The position numbers and the translations under genes are program-made. 64,000 bases of DNA from Antennarius striatus (lineage: Eukaryota; Chordata; Actinopteri; Lophiiformes; Antennariidae). The notes under the pieces were generated by a model. The model saw only the letters and a program-made list of their open reading frames with translations. It did not search any database and had not been told where the DNA came from. The stretch is taken from positions 18,381,001 through 18,445,000 of the forward strand of contig NC_090784.1 in the NCBI RefSeq assembly GCF_040054535.1, written 5' to 3'. Below, in pieces: positions 51,193 through 64,000 of the stretch (its first letter is position 1; every line of letters begins with the position of its first letter).

Positions 51193-51783
51193 GACTGCCT
51201 TTCCACTCTTCATCCTCTTCAATGCCCTCCTCACTTCATCCTGACTAATCTTTGCTACTTCCTGGTCCACAACAGCCACATCTTCTAGTCTTTGTTCTCT
51301 CTCATTTTCCTTCTTCATCAACTCTTCAAAGTACTCTTTCCATCTTCCCATCACACTACTGGCACCTGTCAATAGACTTCCATCCCTATCCTTAATCACC
51401 CTATCCTGCTGCACGTCCTTCCCATCTCTGTCTTGCCAACCGGTATAGATCAGTCTCTCCCTCCTTACTGTCCAACCTAGCATACAAGTCATCAAAAGCT
51501 TCTTGTTTGGCCTTTGTCACCTCTACCTTCGCATTACGCTGCAACTCCCTGTACTCCTGTCTACTCTCCTCAGTCCTCTCAAGAAGGACTGAAGAAGAGG
51601 TTAGCCACTTCTTCTTAGCTAACCTCTTTCTCTGTATACACTCATGTACCTCCTCATTCCACCACCAAGTCTCCTTATCTACTTTCCTTCCAGATGGTAC
51701 ACCGAGTACTCTTCTACCTGTGTCCCTGATCGCATTAGCTGTAATTGTCCAGTCATCTGGAAGCACCTCCTGACCACCCAGAG
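51193..51783 (-). mobile_element. RTE-like LINE internal fragment (endonuclease-RT linker)
   Basis: On the minus strand: LPDDWTITANAIRDTGRRVL, WWWNEEVHECIQRKRLAKKK, AKVEVTKAKQEAFDDLYARL and, after a frameshift near 51450, GRWKEYFEELMKKENERE and DEVRRALKRMKSGKA. This is the stretch between the end of the AP endonuclease and the first RT motifs in RTE-type elements. Both ends are abrupt: SINE on one side, telomere-like repeats on the other. Confidence 0.82.
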
Positions 51784-51860
51784 CCTGTCTTAACCCTATC
51801 CCTAAACCATAACCCTAACTACAAACCCTAACCCCTAACCCTAACCCCTAATGCTAAACA

Positions 51861-51892
<32 letters not shown>

Positions 51893-52365
51893 CTAACCTA
51901 ATCCCTAACCTTAACCTTAACCCTCTAACCCTAACTCCCTAACCCTAACCTTAAACCTTAACCCTATTCCTAACCATAACCTAACCCCTTATCCCTAACC
52001 ATAGCCCTAACCCTAACCCTAAACCCTAACCCTATTCTTAACCTAACACGAAACCCTAACCCTAACTTACCCTAACCCTAACCTTAAACCTAACCCTAAC
52101 CCCAAAACGAAACCTTAACCCCAAATCCTAACCATAACCCCTAACCTTAACCCCTAACCCCAAAAACCAAACCCTACCCCTAAACCTTAATCCTATTCCT
52201 ATTCCTAACCCTAAACCCTAACCCTAACCTAAACATAACCCTAACCCCCTAACCCTAAACCTAACCACCCCTGCCCTAACCATAACCCTAACCATAACCC
52301 TTACCCTAACCCCTAACTCCAAACCTAACCCTAAACTTAACCCTGACCCTACACCTTAACCCTTG
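51784..52365. repeat. degenerate interstitial telomere-like (CCCTAA)n array
   Basis: About 580 bp dominated by CCCTAA and variants (CCCCTAA, CCTTAA, CCATAA). The C-rich strand is on top throughout. It starts immediately at the broken end of the LINE fragment. Confidence 0.95.
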
Positions 52366-54445: not shown

Positions 54446-54606
54446 AAACCCTAACCCTAACCCTTAACCCTTAACCCTAAGCCTTTAACCCTAACCCTAA
54501 CCTTAACCCTAACCCCAAAACCAAACCCCAACCCCTAACCCTAACCCGAAAATCTAACCCAAACCCTAGCCCTAACCCCAAACCCTAACCCTATCCTAAA
54601 TCCTAA
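54446..54606. repeat. telomere-like (CCCTAA)n block
   Basis: About 160 bp of CCCTAA and variants, C-rich strand on top, directly preceding the noncoding unit that starts cccttctttccccattaa. Confidence 0.95.
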
Positions 54607-55125
54607 CCCTTCTTTCCCCATTAAACTCCCCCCATCCTTCTTTTTCCTTTAATTTCCATGTTGAGTCCATTTTCACCTTATTTAATTTTATTTTTAATGT
54701 TATCAATTTATTTTATTTACTTTATTTATTAAAATTTAAGCCTACAGAAATATAAAGAATGAAATCTCTTATATTTGATGTTTTGCTTGCAATTTTATTA
54801 TGTAGTAAAAATACAATAAGTGTTTGGAGATGACCTTTTCTTGTTTTATAATGCCTCCCTTTTTATTTCTGAAATTATTTAACCAACAATATTTTTCTAT
54901 TTTTTCTGTTTAAGGCACCTTCCCCTTATTTCAAAAAAATAAAGGAATTTAAGACATTTTTAAGAGCTTTCTATTTATCCTTTATTTATTCTTATATTTA
55001 TAGATAATATGGACTATTTTTCTTCACTTCATATTCATTGCCTCTTTAGATAAGTGTAATAATAATAAACAATAAATGAATTATAAATTATGAGTGGTTT
55101 AGATATTTTCCCATTGTCAGTGTAC

Positions 55126-55200
55126 CCCCAGAATGGTGTAGAGGTAATATCAGTTTCCTTCAACTTGACATAGAGGGTTCAAAGCCCAACCGTACCACAT
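55126..55200 (+). other. tRNA-like module 1 in unit A
   Basis: A-box-like tggtgtagaggt and B-box-like gagggttcaaagccc at tRNA spacing, ending near accaca. The copy at 59541-59616 (minus) preserves gagttcaaacccc. It resembles the Gln/Glu type of tRNA in the D-arm but the cloverleaf is imperfect. Confidence 0.55.
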
Positions 55201-55263
55201 CTCTTTTAAAAATTCTTTTAACCAAAGTTTTCCTTATATCTGCATCTCCCCACAGGCACCACC

Positions 55264-55343
55264 AAGAAGCAATAGCTCAATGCTTTAAACACAAGCTTAG
55301 CAGTCAGGGGAGCAGGGTTCAAGGCCTGCTCTCTACGTACCAC
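55264..55343 (+). other. tRNA-like module 2 in unit A
   Basis: A-box-like atagctcaatgc and a convincing T-arm, gagcagggttcaaggcctgc, followed by tctctacgtacca. In the inverted copy (59398-59481, minus) the T-stem pairing gcagg/cctgc is perfect. Confidence 0.6.
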
Positions 55344-55648
55344 ATCACCTCATCATCCTCCCTGAACATCTGTAGCGTGTTTTTATTGTGGACCTTATTA
55401 ACTATTATTCTATTCCAATATTTTTTTCAGCTCTTCCCTGCTCCGTTTTCTTTCTACAGGAGTGCTTTTTAAATTTTATCATCCTTTTTACCTCACTTCC
55501 CCCAGTTTTTCCTAATTCCCCTAACTTTTCTTTTCCCTTCCCCTAATTTTAATTGATTCTAATTGATTTTAATCCTTTTTAACTCCTAATTTAATTCATG
55601 GCATTTTAAGGTGACCCTACTCTCGGGCCCCATGTGCCAGTGCACTTT

Positions 55649-55670
55649 GTAGTTCCTTTTAAGGAACTAC
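55649..55670. repeat. hairpin near 3' end of unit A
   Basis: gtagttcctt and aaggaactac form a 10-bp stem with a 2-nt loop. The other copy (59088-59108) keeps gtagttc / gaactac. Confidence 0.85.
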
Positions 55671-56143
55671 ATATTTTACTGTACCTAACCCAGCCAGTGC
55701 CCTGTGGACCCCAATCCGATTTCAGTAATTTTATTATTAAGAGTATCAGCCTTCTATTATTAAATATTTGCATTATCAATTTTAACTTTTAACCCCCTGC
55801 CCTCCTTCCCTCCCCCATCCCTAATGATGTATGATCATTTAATTTTAAACCCCCCCCCCCCTTTTTTTTAAATTGAATTCCTTTTCCCCACCCCCTTTCC
55901 ATTTTTTTCATACTTCCTTACCCTCCTTACCCCTCCCACTCTCCCACCCTCCCTCTTCCTGCCCACTTCCCCTTCAGGAAGCAATGAGAGAATCCTCTTT
56001 CTTTTTTTTTTTTTACAATTTTTACCAGGAAGTAACCTTTTGAATCTGTTTCAGCCAATGGATAGTGATCACATGGACCTTTGACCTCTCCACCCTCAAT
56101 AAAAGACTTCCTGTTTCCTGTTTCCTGCTTCCAGAGTCATCTT

Positions 56144-56180
56144 CCTCCTGATGAAGCCTTTATTGGGCGAAACGTTGAGG
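56144..56180 (+). ncRNA. hammerhead-ribozyme-like motif in Penelope-like leader
   Basis: cctc + ctgatga (56144-56154), a stem gcc/ggc, gaaa (56169-56172), cgtt, then gagg (56177-56180). The cctc/gagg arms would form stem I, and acgt is a palindrome that would form a minimal stem III across a dimer. One extra A after ctgatga departs from the canonical core. Hammerhead motifs are known in Penelope-like elements; activity here is inference. Confidence 0.5.
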
Positions 56181-57218
56181 CCTCCCATTGTGTGCTTTTT
56201 AAATTGGTTTTAATTCATTTTATAATTGGATTGTTTTAACTAGGCAGGGATTTTAATGTTTTATTCAGCTTTTACTCACTTATTCACTGAACAGACCCAG
56301 CATACAAGGACCTTCAAGGAACCGTCACACCGCAGAGCGGCCAGAACCCCAGACAGGTGGGTAATTCTTAACTTCTGTCACAAAGAGTGTGCACACTGAA
56401 GATTGCACCTCACCCTCCTTACCATCAACGCCGCCGCAAGCCTGCTCCACACCTGGTGGAAACTTCAAGCCCCACCCGGTCTGAAACAGAAGGCCTGAGT
56501 CCACGTGGTTTTTAAACACCACAAAGACATTTTAACTGTGAGTTTGAACTGGTCGTTTTTATCCCCCCATTCCCCTTTTCCCATCTTTTAAAATAGCACA
56601 AAAAAACCTCTACCCTCCCTCCTCTTACCCTTCCCTCTCTCTCCTTTCCCTTAATTAGCCTCCCCCCTCTTTATCACTCCCTCGTTTGTTCCACTTTGTT
56701 TAAACCCGCTGAATTTGGTTTAACATTTGGTATTTTTAAGCTTCCCCATTTCGTCGCCTCCCTCAATCTTGTTTATCATTTAAAAACCTTTTATGCTTTA
56801 ATATTTTTTATTTTTTACCAATTGATTTTAGTCCATTTTATAACCAGCCCACTTTTACATTGTTTTCTTACCCTTATTGGCTCTTATGTACTTTCTTAAT
56901 TAGTTTTTAAAAAGTTTAGCTTTTTAAACTTTAAATTTTATTATTTTTATTTATTTTAATTTATTTTATAACGAGTCCGCTTTTATATGGTTTTTTCGCT
57001 GTTGTTTGTTCTTATTCATTCAATTTCTTTTAATAATGCCTTTAAAGTTGAACCCTTTTAAATCTTAATTTTTTAGTAATTTAATTTTGGTTTTATCTAT
57101 TTTAACCAAAAACATTTTTTATATTGTCTAAATCAGGTGCAGACCCAGTGCTTCTGCCCTCTTTGTTTGTGCTTCATTTTATCCTTTTAGACCCGGTTTT
57201 ATCCAGAGAGGAATCAAC

Positions 57219-57458
57219 ATGTCGGTCCGCCTCTCAATCCGGTTTGCAGTCCTGGCAGCCGCACCGGAGGACCACACCAATAAGGCTACTTCTGCCAAAG
57301 CAAACCACCCATGCTCCGATGCGGCACCCACCCCCACTCCCACCTCCAACCGTTCTTCTGCCTCCGTTTCTGTCCCGCAGACCAAATTGTATTTTAAAAT
57401 TTTACAAGTCATCCACCATCTAGAAATCCTAGATTCTCACGTGGAGAGGGGGACATGA
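57219..57458 (+). CDS. N-terminal segment of the Penelope-like forward copy, unknown function
   Basis: A 79-codon frame starting MSVRLSIRFAVLAAAPEDHT, rich in Ala, Thr, Pro and Ser, ending HLEILDSHVERGT. It lies upstream of the segment that is collinear with the reverse copy, so its counterpart would fall beyond the window end. No domain recognised; it could be the start of the element's protein or chance. Confidence 0.3.
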   Translation: MSVRLSIRFAVLAAAPEDHTNKATSAKANHPCSDAAPTPTPTSNRSSASVSVPQTKLYFKILQVIHHLEILDSHVERGT

Positions 57459-57935
57459 CCACCCGGCATGAAAAAAAAAGGTTACAAATCTATCCCAATT
57501 CATAAAACCATCCTCACCCAACAACACAACGTCCAATAAAATCAGGGATAACAATAAATTGGCTCAAAGCAAATTTACAAATATTACACGACCACTACGA
57601 CGCTGTCATCCAGGCCTCCATCTCTGAACTCCATCAGTTTGTACGTTGACTGTATGTCCGGAACCTCACCGACACCCCACCACTTTCCGCAAAATCTTAG
57701 ACTGGTCCCTCACGGTTCGCAAACCCCCCACACGTCATCATTTCGACTGGCCTTAACAACTGCCTTCAGGAGCAGGTCCCACTGACCAGCTGGAAACAGC
57801 TGCAGCAGTTGTTAAGGACAGCCGAATCCACCTTCCCCTCTGCCAAATTTATATTCCTGTAATTAATTTCTCAGACCAATTATCCACCCGTAAACAAACT
57901 CTGATCAAGAAATTGAATCAAACGATTATCAGTAA

Positions 57936-58886
57936 ATGCACATTTTTACCCGAACTCGACCCCTCACTTTTTACCTCACCGTTTTTTTTCATGAACATAA
58001 TCGAAAACATAAGAAACTGGCCACAAAAGTTTATTTTAAAGAGACAGACCGACATGCCCTCCTTTTTAAAGCTTCTTACCACCCGAGGCACACTTTCAAG
58101 GGGGTAATCAAGTCGCAACTAATCCGCTTCCACAGGATCTGCACCTACCTGAAGGATGTGGAGGAGGCAACAAAAGTTTTATTCAGTGCACTTCGGCCGC
58201 GGGGGTATTCGAGGCGCTTCCTTAGGAGTATTAAGGCGGAGGTTATTGCAGCCCCCCCTCGAACTAGCACTCCCACCCCGGTCAGCACAGAAACCAATCA
58301 ATTTTCCATCCCCCTGGTCACTACATATTCGCAGTCCACGCAACCCCTCCTCAGCACCATCCGTCACAACTTCTCCCACCTGCACTCCACCCACCCATCC
58401 CTGGGGGGCTGCTGTCTGATCTCCGCCTACAGGAGGAACAAAAATCTCAAAGACCTCCTGGTCCACGCAGCCCTCAAACCGGTAACTCCTAGGGAAGCGT
58501 CTCGAGCCCGGGAGATACATTTTATCCAAACCCGCTATATTTTTAACCCATTCAGTCGGGCTGGTTCCAACCACTGGCAAGCCCCCACACCTGGCACCTT
58601 GAACGCCATTTACGCCATCAGACGTCAGGCCTGCCAGAAACTGTACATCGGGGAAACCAAAAATGCCATATTTTTACGCATTAAACACTTTTATATTATG
58701 AAAAGCGGAGCAGGAAATAACATCTTATACAATCATTTTAAAACTCATGGACCACACAATGTTCAGAGCCTGGGGATCGAGAGCGACAGCCGCTGGTCCC
58801 TCACACAACGACGCACAGCAGAGAGACGTCGGATCGCTAAACTGGACACGATCGATCCCCATGGCCTGAACGAAAAATTCAATTGA
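57936..58886 (+). CDS. Penelope-like protein C-terminus: RT thumb and GIY-YIG endonuclease (internally deleted ORF)
   Basis: An open frame of 316 codons. Residues about 17-85 give the conserved post-RT region (FKETDRHALLFKASYHPRHT, FKGVIKSQLIRFHRICTYLK, RPRGYSRRFLRSI). The last 100 residues form a GIY-YIG nuclease: AIYAIRRQACQKLYIGETKN, then the FLRIKHF arginine helix and NHFKTHG. In Penelope-like elements this nuclease nicks the target for reverse transcription. The first few residues come from the deletion junction: the RT palm that should precede the thumb is missing, so this copy is non-autonomous. Stop TGA at 58884-58886. The start ATG at 57936 is arbitrary because the frame is a deletion product. 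Confidence 0.85.
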   Translation: MHIFTRTRPLTFYLTVFFHEHNRKHKKLATKVYFKETDRHALLFKASYHPRHTFKGVIKSQLIRFHRICTYLKDVEEATKVLFSALRPRGYSRRFLRSIKAEVIAAPPRTSTPTPVSTETNQFSIPLVTTYSQSTQPLLSTIRHNFSHLHSTHPSLGGCCLISAYRRNKNLKDLLVHAALKPVTPREASRAREIHFIQTRYIFNPFSRAGSNHWQAPTPGTLNAIYAIRRQACQKLYIGETKNAIFLRIKHFYIMKSGAGNNILYNHFKTHGPHNVQSLGIESDSRWSLTQRRTAERRRIAKLDTIDPHGLNEKFN

Positions 58887-58983
58887 AAAAGTTTTTATTT
58901 TATTCCACTTTTACTCTGTTTTTAGGTCCTACAATATTTTAACACTCAAATTCTTCTCGCCATCCCAAACCAGACCCAACTCC

Positions 58984-59075
58984 CTCTTTAACCCTAACCC
59001 CTAACCCTAACCCTAGGGTTAGGGTTAGGGGTTAGGGTTAGGGTTTAGGCTTAGAGTTAGGATTAAGGGTTAGGT
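58984..59075. repeat. telomeric palindrome: (CCCTAA)n meeting (TTAGGG)n
   Basis: C-rich repeats (58989-59014) are followed without spacer by G-rich repeats (59015-59075). The arms are exact reverse complements for 26 bp each side (58989-59040), including the same irregular CCCC step; the centre is ccct|aggg at 59014/59015. Confidence 0.95.
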
Positions 59076-61042
59076 ACAGTAAGATACGTAGTTCCTTGAA
59101 AGAACTACGAAGTGCACTGGCACATGGGGCCCGGGAGTGGGGTCACCTTAAAATGCCGTGAATTAAAACAGGAGTTAAAATCAATTAGAATCAATTAAAA
59201 TTAGGGAAGGGAAAATAAGTTAGGGGAATGAGGAAAAACTGGGGGAAGTGAGGTAAATGGATTTTAAAATTTAAAAAGCACTCTTCTAAAAAGAAAACAA
59301 AGCAGGTAAGAGTTAAAAACATATTGGAATAAAATAATAGTTATTGAGGTCCACAATAAAAACATGCTACAGATGTTCGGGAAGGATGATGAGGTGATGT
59401 GGTACGTAGAGAGCAGGACTTGAATCCTGCTCCCCTGACTGTGAAGCTTGTGTTTAAGGCATTGAGCTATGGCTTCTTGGTGGTGCCTGTGGGGAGATGC
59501 AGATATAAGGTAAACTTTGGTTAAAAGGATGTTTTAAGGAGATGTGGTCCAGTTGGGGTTTGAACTCTCGATCTCAAGTTGTAAGGTACCGATATTACCT
59601 CTACACCATTCTGGGGCCTGCTAACAATGGGGAAATAGCTAATCCAATTCAGAGGGGTTGGGATGAGGGGAAAGAAAAGGAAAGTTTTGGAATTGGCAGA
59701 TTAGGGGTGGGGGGTGGGGGGGTTAGGGTTAGAAAAATCAGGGGTTAGGGTTTAGGGAAAGAGGGGGGGGGATGGGTGTTTGAGTTTAGGGAAAGAAGCA
59801 GCTGGAAAGAAAAAAAAGAAAGAAATGTATTTATATATTTATATACATACAAATAGAAATAACCTTAATAGAAATTTTAGGGCCCCTTCTGGTAAAAGAA
59901 CAATTTAAAATATGATCTGAATAATAATGATAAGTATTTTAGTTAAGTGCTATGTTATTAAAATATGTACAATAAATAAGTAAAATGAAACATGCAGTTA
60001 AAGACAAAAGTAATAATTTTAAAGAAAGGAGTTTGTATTAATAAAATAAGGGATTCACTCAGTCAGGGTAAGATTCATAATCAACTTGTTGGTTGTTCTG
60101 AACCAAAGGGGCGATTGACATTTGAAATTGACTTAATTCATTCAAAAAAATAATTTTATGAAATTAAATATATTCATGATTTCTATTTATTTTATTGTTT
60201 ATTATTACATTTATCTAAAGAGGCAATGAATATGAAATAAAGAAAAATAGTCCATACGGGGCGGCACGGTGGCGCAGTGGTTAGCGCTGCTGCCTCACAA
60301 CACGGCGGACCCGGGTTTGAGTCCCGCTCTGTGCGGAGTTCGCATGCTCTCCCCGTGTCTGCGTGGGTTCTCTCCGGGTTCTCCGGCTTCCTCCCACCTC
60401 CAAAAGCATGCGCTTCAGGTTAATTGGCCGGTCCCAAATTGACCATAGTCAATTTGTGTGTATAGAGTGTGTGTGTGAATGTATGTTTGTTTGTATGTGG
60501 CTCCGCGGTACACTGGCGTCGTGCCCGGAGTGTCCCCCGCCTCACGCCCTGAGACTGCCAGGATTGGCACTGGCTACCCCGCGACCTGCGTTAGCGGATT
60601 AAGCGGGTTGGACAATGAATGAATGAGTCCATACTATCTCCAAATATAAGAATAAATAAAGGATAAATGGAAAAGTCCTAAAAAGTAACTTAAATTCCTT
60701 TATTTTTTTGAAATAAGGGGAAGGTGCCTAAAACAGAAATATAAATCGAATAGAAAAATATTGTTGGTAAAATAATTTCAGAAATAAAAAGGGAGACATT
60801 ATGAAAACAAGCAAAGGTCATCCCCAAACACTTATTAGTATTGTTAATGTATATTAAAATTGCATGCAAAACATCAAATATAAGTGGTTTCATTCTTTAT
60901 ATTTCTGTAGGCTTAAATTTTAATAAATAAAATAAATAAACTTAAATTGATAACATTAACAATAAAAGTAAATAAGGTGTATATGGACTAAACATGGAAA
61001 TTAAAAAAAAAGGGGGGGATGGGGGGGGTTAATGGAAAAAGA
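59060..61042 (-). mobile_element. noncoding unit A, inverted copy
   Basis: Reverse complement of unit A at 54607-55691, fuller by about 500 bp, and interrupted by a SINE at 60258-60628. It contains tRNA-like module 1 (59541-59616), module 2 (59398-59481), an internal ttaggg-rich patch (59715-59755) and the hairpin (59088-59108). Telomere-like repeats border both ends. Confidence 0.82.
60258..60628 (+). mobile_element. tRNA-derived SINE inserted in inverted unit A
   Basis: Near-intact copy with A-box tggcgcagtggt and B-box gggtttgagtcccg, ending gcggattaagcgggttgg and gaatgaatg. The duplication agtccata flanks it on both sides. The forward unit A at about 55005-55020 preserves the empty site (reverse complement aatagtccatattatc), proving insertion after unit A was duplicated. 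Confidence 0.92.
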
Positions 61043-61076
61043 AGGGTTATGGTTAGGGTTAGGGGTTAGGGTTAAA
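61043..61076. repeat. telomere-like (TTAGGG)n at the 3' end of the reverse Penelope-like copy
   Basis: gggttatggttagggttagg and following; on the minus strand this continues directly from the element's 3' UTR (accagacccaattccctttt), as in the forward copy. Confidence 0.93.
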
Positions 61077-61193
61077 AAGGGAATTGGGTCTGGTTTTGGG
61101 ATGGAGAGGAAAATTTGATTGAGTGTTAAAATATTGTGGGACCTAAAAATAGAGTAAAAGTGGAATAAAATAAAAACTGTTTTTCAATTGAAT

Positions 61194-62090
61194 TTTTCGT
61201 TCAGGCCATGGGGATCGATCGTGTCCAGTTTAGCGATCCAACGTCTCTCTGCTGCGCGTCATTGTGTGAGGGACCAGTGGCTGTCGCTCTCGATCCCCAG
61301 GCTCTGAACATTGTGTGGTCCATGAGTTTTAAAATGATTGTATAAGATGTTATTTCCTGCTCCGCTTTTCATAATATAAAAGTGTTTAATGCGTAAAAAT
61401 ATGGCGTTTTTGGTTTCCCTGATGTACAGTTTCTGGCAGGCCTGACGTCTGATGGCATAAATGGCGTTCGAGGTGCCAGGTGTGGGGGCCTTCCAGAGGT
61501 TAAAACCCGCCCGACTTATGGGGTTGAAAATGTAGCGGGTATTGATAAAATGTATCTCCCGGGTTCAAGACGCCTCCCCAGGAGTGACTGGTTTCAAGGT
61601 TGCGTGGACCAGGAGGTCTTTGAGGTTTTTATTCCTCCTGTAGGCGGAGATCAGATGGCAGCCACCCAGGGACGGGTGGGTAGACTGTAAGTGTCTGAAA
61701 TTATGACGTATGGTGTTGAGGAGGGGTTGGGTGGACTGAGCGTATGTGGTGACCAGTGGGATGAGAAATGGGTTAGTATCTATACTAACTGGGGTAGGGG
61801 TGCTAGTTCGAGGGGGTGCCGTATTAACCTCCGTCTTAATACTCCTAAGGAAGCGCCTCGAATACCCCCACAGCCGAAGTGCACTGAATACAATTTTCAT
61901 CGCCTCCTCAACATCCTTCAGGTAGGTGCAAATCCTGTGGAAGCGGATTAGTTGTGATTTAATTACCCCCTTGAAAGTGTGCTTTGGGTGGTACGACGAT
62001 TTAAAAAGGAGGGCATGTCGGTCCGTCTCTTTAAAATAAACTTTTGTGGTCAGTTTTTTAATTTTGTGGTTGTGTTCTTGAAAAAATACT
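61194..62090 (-). pseudogene. Penelope-like RT thumb and GIY-YIG endonuclease, frameshifted
   Basis: Minus-strand counterpart of 57990-58886. RLWGYSRRFLRSIKTEV and SLGGCHLISAYRRNKNLKDL match the intact forward frame; a frameshift near 61570 then moves the GIY-YIG part into another frame before the TGA at 61196-61194. Confidence 0.85.
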
Positions 62091-63178
62091 GTGGTGTCTA
62101 AAAATTCTATTGCTTTGGGATGGGTTTTGAGTTATTTTGGGGTGGTGGGAGTTGAGGATATGAATAAACTTTAAGAACTCTGCCTCTGATCTGTCCCACA
62201 GACCAAACATGTCATCCAGATATCTGACATTGGGAAGGGGCTGGTGGGGGCAGTTGCGGAGAGCGGACTCCTCCCACTTGGCCAGGTAAATGTCGGCGTA
62301 TGAGGGGGAGTATTTCCTTCCCATCGCACAGCCACAGACCTGGAGGTAGTGCTGGTTATTGAAGAAGAAATCATTCCGGGTGAAGGGTTATTTCTACTAG
62401 TTGTAGTATGGCGGAGTCAGGTTGGGAGGGGTCGGGGTGACGGAGGAAGATGTTCTTGATTGCGGCGTATAGCGAGTCAATGTCTATTGAGAAGAGGAGT
62501 GTGTGGGGCGGGACCTGAACAGAAGACAGACGGTGAACAGAGGTATAGGTGTCCTTGATATAGCTGGGGTGCAGGTGGGAGAGGGGGTTGATGTAGTGGT
62601 CTATATTCTGCTATGTGTTGGGACTCGGACCCGCAATCACTAACGATGGGTCTCCCTACTGGGACCACCGAGGGGACCGTCCAGGTTTGGGGCGGTTTGT
62701 GTATTTTGGGAAGTAAATAGAAGAGGCGCAGTCGGGGTTCGTCTGGGCCGTCCAGGTAGGTCTTTTGTTTGTATGTGATGTATTTTTTGGTGTAAAGATC
62801 TGATATTATATGTTGGATGATTGTTTGTGTTTCTGGTTGTAATGATGTTTCCAATTTTTTATAATAATTTGGATTGTTGAGTTGGTGGTTTGCTTCCAGG
62901 ATGTAGTTATTGAGGTCTTGTAGTACTATTTGGCCGCCTTTGTCCGCTGGTTTGATGACTATGTGTGTGCTTGTTGATAATTGTTTGATGATTTGCTGTT
63001 GTGACGGGGTGATGTTAGGAGTGGTTGGAGTGTGCGGACGCCAGCGGCTGAGGGAGTGGAGGTTGGTGTCCACCAGGTCACGGAGGTCTGGGGACGCCAA
63101 GTCCGGGTTCGGTTCCCACCTGGAAGGCCCAACGAACGGCACCGGTTCCTGCATGTTTGATGTTCCAAAGTGATCCAT
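62058..63178 (-). pseudogene. Penelope-like reverse transcriptase domain, frameshifted
   Basis: Minus strand motifs in order: IVIKPADKGGQIVLQDLNNY, FYLLPKIHKPPQTW, VGRPIVSDCGSES, (frame change) HTLLFSIDIDSLYAAIKNIF (motif A), (frame change) LQVCGCAMGRKYSPSYADIY (motif B), NVRYLDDMFGLWDRSEAEFL (motif C, YLDD). This is the RT fingers-palm of Penelope-like elements. At least two frameshifts (near 62570 and 62390) break it. Confidence 0.88.
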
Positions 63179-63268
63179 TAGGAAGAGGCGTCTATGAAAT
63201 AGGTGGAGGTCCCCTCGGATGTCCGGTCGGGAGGGAGGGGGTGGAGTGGGAATGAAGGTAAGTCCCTT

Positions 63269-63997
63269 CTACAGTAAATGTTGAATTTCGGGCGTGAGTT
63301 GGAAAGTAGAACAAAGATTGAGAACATTGGAGTGTGAGTTGGAGAGATTGGGGGTCGTGGCTGCACTGTTACCCCCTGTTACAAGTTTAACTGGTTGCAC
63401 CAGTACTGAAAAATGGTGTAAGCGGTTTGGGGGGTCCAGTGAACAGGGTCCGAGTCCACAACCTGAAAAAGTGAGGGGCTGAGTGCCGGTCGAAACGGAC
63501 ATTGCTAATTGTTGGGTTGAGTTGTTTGAGGAGATTTTGTCTGCGGGGGGTAATTGGGGGGAGAAATTGACCACGGGAATATAAATGGTGGCTAAGGGGA
63601 AGGTGAATTCGGCTGTCCTCAACAACTGCTGCAGTTGTTTCCAGGTGGTGGTTGGCATCTGCTCCTGAAGTTAGTTGTTGAGGCCAGCCGAAATGATGAC
63701 GGTGTGGGGGGTGGGTTGTGGTGGGAGTTTCTTTAATATACAGGTAATGTGGTGAAACGTGGCGCCGGGGAAACTGTCGATTTGTATGGTGGGGTGTTTG
63801 AAGGTGGGGATGCGTGATAAGTTGGAGTCTCCGATGATAAGGGTGGGTTTGTGGATGGTGAGAAACCAGTCTAGAACCTTACAGAGGGTGGACGGGTATC
63901 GGTGTGGTTCCGGACGTCCAGGTGAGGGCGGAGTCGCCACTGGGGAATTCCCTGAAGCAACAGTGATGGACTCAGATGTTATGGATGAACTCAGCAT
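63269..63997 (-). pseudogene. SGNH/GDSL-hydrolase-like segment of the Penelope-like reverse copy
   Basis: Minus strand: KVLDWFLTIHKPTLIIGDSN, LSRIPTFKHPTIQIDSFPGA and HTVIISAGLNN, then (after a stop near 63671) LLRTAEFTFPLATIYIPVVN. The order GDSN...(P)G...GLNN resembles blocks I-III of SGNH hydrolases, with the Ser in GDS and the Asn in GLNN. Esterase-type domains are known in some CR1 LINE ORF1 proteins. A catalytic D-x-x-H block was not seen. The forward copy has lost the GDSN core by deletion. Confidence 0.6.
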
Positions 63998-64000
63998 TGA

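Follow-up and report, generated by a model that had tools for sequence, protein, structure and literature searches.

Can a Penelope-like element (PLE) that carries its own GIY-YIG endonuclease (EN) make its living on telomeric DNA? The question is raised by a 64,000-nt stretch of the genome of the fish Antennarius striatus (contig NC_090784.1, positions 18,381,001 to 18,445,000; hereafter, the window), in which the region from 54.4 to 64 kb contains two PLE copies on opposite strands, arranged tail to tail and punctuated by telomere-like repeats. Telomere-joined living was previously known mainly from PLE relatives without an endonuclease, whereas EN-bearing PLEs were held to insert elsewhere. 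In the published record, telomere attachment is described for endonuclease-lacking PLEs of some animals, fungi, protists and plants (PMC3846280), and terminons attach via reverse-complement telomere repeats adjoining a 3' fold (PMC6431247), whereas GIY-YIG PLEs are stated to integrate at random, at AT-rich sites (PMC12031113). The analysis described below leads us to conclude, with a probability of about three in four, that the window elements belong to a group of Neptune-like PLEs with two open reading frames (ORFs), one of them of the GDSL/SGNH type, that specialised on telomeric DNA in a fish and prime reverse transcription on the telomeric G-strand in the manner of terminons.

The 3' junctions of the elements

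The sequence-only reading of this locus had claimed that the 3' untranslated regions (3'UTRs) of both PLE copies end in the same sequence and then run, on the sense strand, into CCCTAA repeats. This is borne out: TTTAACCCTAACCCCTAACCCTAACC is found at both junctions, in identical register and with an identical CCCC variant. Telomere-like tracts are located at 54447-54610, 58989-59013, 59014-59074 (as TTAGGG) and 61043-61074, and altogether the window contains 96 matches to CCCTAACCCTAA with up to two mismatches, compared with 4.3 expected from shuffles.

To tabulate the 3'UTR copies by downstream sequence and by distance from the chromosome end, the 97-base 3'UTR was used as a query against the assembly that contains the window (548 Mb in 42 contigs), and all 22 candidates were scored. 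This yielded 22 genomic copies, both window copies included. In 20 of them the 3'UTR is followed by CCCTAA on the sense strand; 18 share one register, and L021 has the junction in a different register. Copies flanked by unrelated single-copy DNA are not the majority among the 22. Six copies lie less than 40 kb from a chromosome end, all six with the 5' end outward, whereas the other 16 follow no such rule of position and orientation.

Position and orientation relative to chromosome ends

A much larger set of loci was obtained with the ORF2 query. Scoring 126 of its 168 candidates gave 105 matches, which merged into 84 loci. Of these, 71 are on the 24 chromosomes; the other 13 merged loci, on the small contigs C25 and C30, are left out of the count. 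Among these 71 loci, 40 are located within 100 kb of a chromosome end, compared with 0.63 expected, and 38 of the 40 are oriented with the 5' end outward. The near-end loci are spread over 15 of the 48 ends and point outward at 14 of the 15. Both wrong-way loci are at the left end of C3, where the tip (C3:1-100, L053) reads TTAGGG rather than CCCTAA, so that this terminal contig was probably assembled in inverted orientation. The loci with open frames show the same pattern even more strictly: of 17 chromosomal loci with frames of 600-800 amino acids (frames above 800 amino acids, which appear to read through runs of N, were excluded), 15 are within 100 kb of an end, without exception in the outward orientation.

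Two other repeats from the window served as controls. A long interspersed nuclear element (LINE) fragment had 1 of its 40 matches no farther than 100 kb from an end and 3 no farther than 1 Mb (40 of 2117 candidates scored), and a long terminal repeat (LTR)-type repeat had 1 of 42 and 5 of 42, respectively, that is, 2 of 82 within 100 kb for both together, although each control is a single family counted as unmerged matches and the ORF2 loci were merged. The Fisher test gave p = 5e-15 for 40/71 against 2/82 and p = 0.001 for 6/22 against 2/82, values that treat the copies as independent, which they are not. The earlier suggestion that the element may insert at telomeres or telomere-like tracts is thus supported both by the 20 of 22 junctions and by the accumulation of the loci near the ends.

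Several ends illustrate the arrangement. On C9, the first 10 kb are CCCTAA repeats, followed by an assembly gap to 25 kb, a PLE at 25.0-27.8 kb (end of ORF1, reverse transcriptase (RT), ORF2 and 3'UTR), CCCTAA, the adjoining unit A described below, and again CCCTAA. The right tips of C10 and C16 are formed by 5.9 and 4.9 kb of TTAGGG, and their PLEs are located about 20 and 25 kb inward, respectively; the stretches between tip and PLE were read in part and contain gaps. A separate peculiarity of C10 is a PLE copy at 24.323 Mb (L051:2142-2806) in which a 40-bp step of ORF1 is repeated about 13 times.

One objection to these counts is that the assembly collapsed or misjoined telomere-like and PLE repeats where scaffolds end. 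Many of the examined tips do begin with runs of N, C3 looks inverted, and gaps flank several PLE contigs. However, many loci, some of them in the interior, have their junctions in uninterrupted sequence, and the same pattern appears in two contigs from other assemblies (L001 and L002, see below) and in a published sturgeon assembly, so that we consider an artefact of assembly hardly credible.

A second objection is that CCCTAA is simply part of the element RNA, a microsatellite-like tail, whereas insertion takes place elsewhere or at random, and the enrichment at the ends reflects passive survival in gene-poor DNA. Such a tail would fit the fact that 9 of the 22 3'UTR copies agree in the opening 24 nt of the tract, down to the CCCC variant, as well as the tracts inside the L001 and L002 units and the short or absent tracts at three loci (L022, L024 and L025). 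It does not account for the outward bias within 100 kb of the ends, for the two control repeats that show no end enrichment, or for the telomere repeats at some 5' truncation points, which are inexplicable by a 3' tail. We therefore regard this explanation as improbable.

More weight has to be given to recombination between telomere-like tracts, by which a few chance insertions in subtelomeres could have been copied from end to end, with their orientation kept and without any targeting. Over 710 bases, the identity among five copies, on C2, C6, C9, C10 and C16, is 98.5-99.6%; the C2 and C6 copies are alike in structure and have a common 5' start; several end copies have equal ORF2 search scores; and C6 and C25 carry tandem arrays that repeat about every 4.1 kb. 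Exchange between subtelomeres has probably multiplied the copies. By itself, it does not explain the junctions or the several lineages: two EN-bearing subfamilies and a family without EN each have outward copies near ends, the end copies differ in structure (C7, C10, C17 and C22), nine distinct 5' truncations exist (mostly at interior loci), the CCCTAA junction holds in interior copies as well, and the trait recurs in two other presumed fish (L001 and L002). Moreover, the first insertions would still have to be in telomere tracts. Exchange as the whole explanation is accordingly unlikely.

Unit A as the 3' region of the element

The sequence-only reading had described an accompanying unit A that begins and ends at telomere-like repeats. 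Both ends stand (54611-55691 and, on the other strand, 61046-59075), whereas the separateness of the unit does not. Unit A begins after the 3'UTR in 18 of the 22 loci, and CCCTAA repeats continue from its 3' end in 18 of the 19 copies at the loci read, which comprise 17 distinct sequences; the exception is the plus-strand copy in the window. Because of these two regularities, we read unit A as the element's own 3' region. The four loci without such a start of unit A are L004, which is the palindrome in the window; L017, with a telomere tract followed by an ORF2 fragment; L019, with a tract followed by an assembly gap; and L020, with a tract followed by a 3' fragment of unit A.

On folding, unit A forms a hairpin at its end (z -5.5 in the window and -4.7 in C7), followed by unpaired CCUAACCC. 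In the plus-strand copy, folding and copy comparison place the hairpin and the unpaired CCTAACCC at 55631-55691. The alternative that unit A is an independent element, similar to a short interspersed nuclear element (SINE), with two tRNA-like stretches was rejected as the principal interpretation because the unit follows the PLE 3'UTR in 18 of the 22 loci. By eye, tRNA-like A and B boxes are present at 55130-55195 and 55262-55345, in both copies; neither ARAGORN nor Rfam found a tRNA in unit A.

Truncated copies and telomere caps

Of the 22 3'UTR copies, 8 run off the stretch that was read, 3 have internal breaks only, and 11 are truncated at the 5' end, at nine distinct points. Telomere repeats cap six of the 11 truncated copies, which correspond to four of the nine distinct truncations (C19, two on C16, and a cluster on C1). 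At C2:247.8-249.9 kb, there are in addition four 3' fragments of unit A with three cut points, each flanked by telomere tracts. Near-identical copies are clustered at C1:899-924 kb, where PLE fragments occur side by side with CCCTAA tracts and an LTR-type repeat.

Copies flanked on either side by telomere tracts also fit another route, namely, EN-dependent target-primed reverse transcription into double-stranded telomere-like tracts, interstitial ones included, instead of addition to a chromosome end. Elements of the TRAS/SART type insert into telomere-like tracts in this EN-dependent, target-primed manner. Interior copies embedded in telomere-like tracts, some of them truncated (in the window and on C1, C16 and C19), argue for this route, as does the purifying selection on the endonuclease described in the next section. 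The concentration of the open-frame loci near the tips and the occurrence near ends of a nested family in which the units read lack EN argue against it. Insertion into duplex tracts as the prevailing route is a possibility to be taken seriously, although we incline against it; the duplex and the end-addition routes are compatible and do not exclude one another.

The endonuclease and a nested family with units that lack it

Open ORF2 frames of 779-784 amino acids are present in C9 (782), C2 and C22 (779). Between C9 and C22, the ratio of nonsynonymous to synonymous substitution rates is 0.088 in the RT; in the GIY-YIG part it is 0.106, with a bootstrap range of 0.04-0.20. Thus, the endonuclease of the main family is under purifying selection. 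RT and a C-terminal GIY-YIG domain in a single ORF, the defining trait of EN-bearing PLEs, are found here, and the C9 ORF2 aligns to those of L001 and L002 with 54-64% identity in the RT and 42-43% in the EN. The Pfam profile PF00078 matched the ORF2 of L002 and L001 with E values of 9.1e-7 and 1.5e-5, just below the curated score, and PF01541 matched with 2.4e-6 and 3.4e-5, above the curated score. In ORF1, the GDSL/SGNH motif is recognizable by eye; Lipase_GDSL_2 reached E 0.0043 in L001, below the cut-off, and the L002 ORF1 had no Pfam match. It is the GDSL-type ORF1 and the fish relatives that suggest a Neptune-like placement.

A second family is arranged in tandem, with units that recur at a nearly constant spacing of about 4.1 kb. 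One such array is located on C6, at 40-57 kb from its left end, and another on C25, a contig of 1.09 Mb, at 10-51 kb from its end. One unit was read from each array (L074 and L075). Both have an ORF1 with a GDSN motif and an ORF2 that stops ahead of the GIY-YIG domain, no GIY-YIG remnant was found downstream of ORF2 in either, and the frames of both are broken. The matches assigned to this family by identity (C4, C6, C12, C21, C22, C25 and C30) end at or before residue 199 of the 316-residue query. In RT trees, the EN-less family nests with the EN-bearing P0016, P0018 and L002 (0.956; 94.1/97). Its ORF1 (L074:2095-2241) encodes CCCTAA-like repeats as (NP)n, a case of telomere-like sequence within coding DNA.

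A broader evolutionary reading would be that an EN-bearing Penelope lineage of ray-finned fish acts as a telomerase mimic that extends chromosome ends, with a hairpin and CUAACCC RNA on the 3' overhang, and that one branch dropped the EN and became terminon-like independently. We rate the chances of this reading as nearly balanced, with a slight lean against it.

Related elements in other genomes

A scan of GTDB genomes gave three PLE contigs, from an Enterovibrio metagenome-assembled genome (MAG; L001), from an Epulopiscium single-cell genome (L002), and L003. Presumably, L001 and L002 are DNA of the host fish. Both have C-strand telomere-like sequence directly after the PLE stop codon (none of 300 shuffles scored as high). 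L002 contains two tandem PLE units that are 99.8% identical, and at the 5' end of the contig there are some 40 bases of CCCTAA repeats. L003, from a Saprospiraceae MAG, joins a Penelope fragment to bacterial-looking genes (L003:1-3788) and is probably a chimeric contig.

Among the protein homologues whose name gives the organism, nine are from fish and two are bacterial, which, together with the apolipoprotein-type ORF of the window mentioned below, is in keeping with fish DNA. None of the 64 protein matches contained telomere translations (LTLT, PNPN etc.). Searches of viral contigs by protein and profile patterns, of phage records by DNA and protein, and of plasmid records by protein detected no relatives, and solved structures included no match for the L002 ORF2. 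In the available portions of the openly licensed literature, we found no report of EN-bearing PLEs that target telomeres in fish. Elsewhere among vertebrates, GIY-YIG PLEs of lake sturgeon are located at herpesvirus junctions and are bounded by telomere-like repeats (PMC12031113), a lizard PLE (Poseidon PAc of Anolis) cuts AT-rich DNA and starts reverse transcription internally at an AC-rich stem loop (PMC11167929), and Penelope is among the pericentromeric repeats of a frog genome (PMC10794172).

Structure of the two copies in the window

Both window copies are old, broken PLEs with an SGNH-like ORF1 and an RT/GIY-YIG ORF2. They are 89% identical between 57977-59015 and, on the opposite strand, 62093-61048. 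The plus-strand copy comprises, in sense order, a CCCTAA-like tract (54447-54610, delineated by repeat-tract search and shuffle comparison) and then unit A (54611-55691), which according to the copy alignment is about 530 bp shorter than unit A of the other copy. The 5' leader (55692-57218) starts directly after ...TGTACCTAACCC. It contains, at 56148-56176, a minimal hammerhead-ribozyme-like motif, CTGATGA..GAAACGTT, detected with a regular expression. The motif is also present in L001, L002 and the C6 and C25 units; Rfam gave no hammerhead match, and on folding, the window motif was no more stable than shuffles. Next come two remnants of ORF1, an N-terminal one (57219-57470, from translation and a by-eye likeness to the start of the L001 ORF1) and a C-terminal, SGNH-like one (57723-57972, from alignment and translation). 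The RT core is missing after the latter, and the copy continues at 57977, which pairs with 62093 of the minus-strand copy, with the C-terminal part of ORF2 (57977-58886), where the Pfam match to GIY-YIG is weak (E 0.065, below the cut-off). The copy closes with the 3'UTR (58887-58985) and the CCCTAA tract of the junction (58986-59013).

The minus-strand copy is truncated by the window edge. In its sense order, it comprises the C-terminal part of ORF1 (63466-64000, continuing past the edge), SGNH-like by eye (IIGDSNLSRIP ... IISAGLNN), an 85-residue piece of which had no Pfam match; the RT region (62096-63465); the C-terminal part of ORF2 with GIY-YIG and two internal stops (61187-62107); the 3'UTR (61080-61181); the CCCTAA tract that separates it from unit A (61043-61074); unit A itself (59075-61046), with a SINE-like insert at about 60258-60625; and a final CCCTAA tract (59014-59074, TTAGGG on the plus strand).

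The two terminal tracts form the left and right arms of a palindrome, which is exact, as (CCCTAA)n(TTAGGG)n, over the segment 58989-59040. End-to-end fusion of chromosomes at this site was rejected because the polarity is opposite to that of a telomere fusion. A degenerate CCCTAA array of 570 bp is located at 51791-52363, after an antisense LINE-like fragment (51236-51790); on alignment, no PLE match from the 54-64 kb region adjoined it. An apolipoprotein-type ORF lies farther away, at 23.9-24.4 kb.

Discussion

How might such elements reach telomeric DNA? The RTs of PLEs share ancestry with telomerase, and vertebrate telomerase RNA carries CUAACCC. In the mechanism that we propose, the element RNA would end in a hairpin and single-stranded CUAACCC repeats, which are complementary to the vertebrate telomere. 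This tail would pair with a TTAGGG 3' end, which could be either the natural G-overhang or a nick made in the telomeric duplex by the GIY-YIG enzyme, and the telomerase-like RT would copy the RNA from the paired end. Synthesis may sometimes halt early, whereupon telomerase would put new TTAGGG on the 5' end of the copy. The GIY-YIG enzyme could open the telomeric duplex or serve other steps. Repeated rounds, together with exchange between subtelomeres, would give rise to arrays of element, CCCTAA and element, and the interior copies, those in the window included, would mostly be older relics.

A number of observations weigh against this explanation. With regard to position, the window locus is interior, since the nearest chromosome end is 6.55 Mb away; 31 of the 71 ORF2 loci are more than 100 kb from an end; and from 100 kb to 1 Mb, 4 of 16 loci are outward and 12 point the wrong way. 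Inverted terminal scaffolds might be responsible, but a sign of inversion is seen only at C3. The copies are not independent, as the near-identity of the five copies shows, and each control is a single family with unmerged counts. With regard to the junctions, the 3'UTR runs directly into unit A in L022 and L024, with no tract between, and in L025 the tract is two repeats long, so that the tract between the 3'UTR and unit A is partly borne by the element; at L017, L019 and L020 the tract is not followed by a complete unit A; the 3'UTR of L003 is not telomere-like; and covariation in the hairpin is not significant, as the pair changes across 16 copies do not exceed those in shuffles. Five of the nine distinct truncations adjoin other DNA, and the capped ones are all more than 100 kb from an end (0.57 Mb on C19, 0.9 Mb on C1, and 3.6 and 3.7 Mb on C16), as are the capped unit A fragments at C2, 0.25 Mb from the end. 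Hence, the strongest terminon-like sign is not seen at a tip. Finally, conservation of the EN points to a continuing role for an EN-dependent step, and the two EN-less units, with their broken frames, could be dead tandem derivatives.

If specialisation on telomeric DNA is correct, a vertebrate family with a conserved EN in telomere repeats, together with a derived family without EN, would tie both modes of PLE life together and offer a tractable system for telomere-primed reverse transcription. It would also suggest that some interstitial telomere tracts of fish are retroelement debris, and it offers a reading for the sturgeon PLEs that adjoin telomere-repeat-bearing herpesvirus integrations. 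Should the elements in addition be telomerase mimics, the transition from EN-bearing to EN-less telomeric PLEs would have been caught in a vertebrate, and the old link between PLEs and telomerase would become testable in fish cells.

Comparison with known systems

TRAS/SART, MoTeR and Tx1_Acar are non-LTR elements, not PLEs. Like the fish element, these retroelements reside within telomere repeats (PMC10088271, PMC9693754, PMC7367193). Poseidon PAc of Anolis is a PLE with tandem copies, a hammerhead and internal initiation, but it cuts AT-rich DNA, and the available part of its description mentions no telomere link (PMC11167929). The lake sturgeon PLEs are bounded by telomere-like repeats, as is the fish element, but in the available part of that report the association is not read as targeting and no genome-wide test is given (PMC12031113). 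Neptune-like EN-bearing PLEs of fish and molluscs share GIY-YIG and, judged by eye, a GDSL/SGNH-type ORF with the fish element; esterases are mentioned for Neptune-like PLEs of both groups, and no telomere-repeat association is described for them in the portion available (PMC5408684).

Athena and the terminons of bdelloid rotifers are EN-deficient PLEs. In common with the fish element, they show the sense element followed by C-strand telomere repeats, head-to-tail arrays, and an RNA fold just ahead of the telomere-complementary stretch; they also show telomere-capped 5' truncation, to which four of the nine distinct truncations in the fish, all at interior loci, correspond, and some carry GDSL ORFs (PMC6431247, PMC5408684). 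The fish main family differs in that it is vertebrate and keeps GIY-YIG under selection, and in that the fold before its tail is a plain hairpin, the hammerhead-like motif being located in the 5' leader instead. Nevertheless, it has two hallmarks of Athena and the terminons: the 3' end in reverse-complement telomere repeats and the location at chromosome ends.

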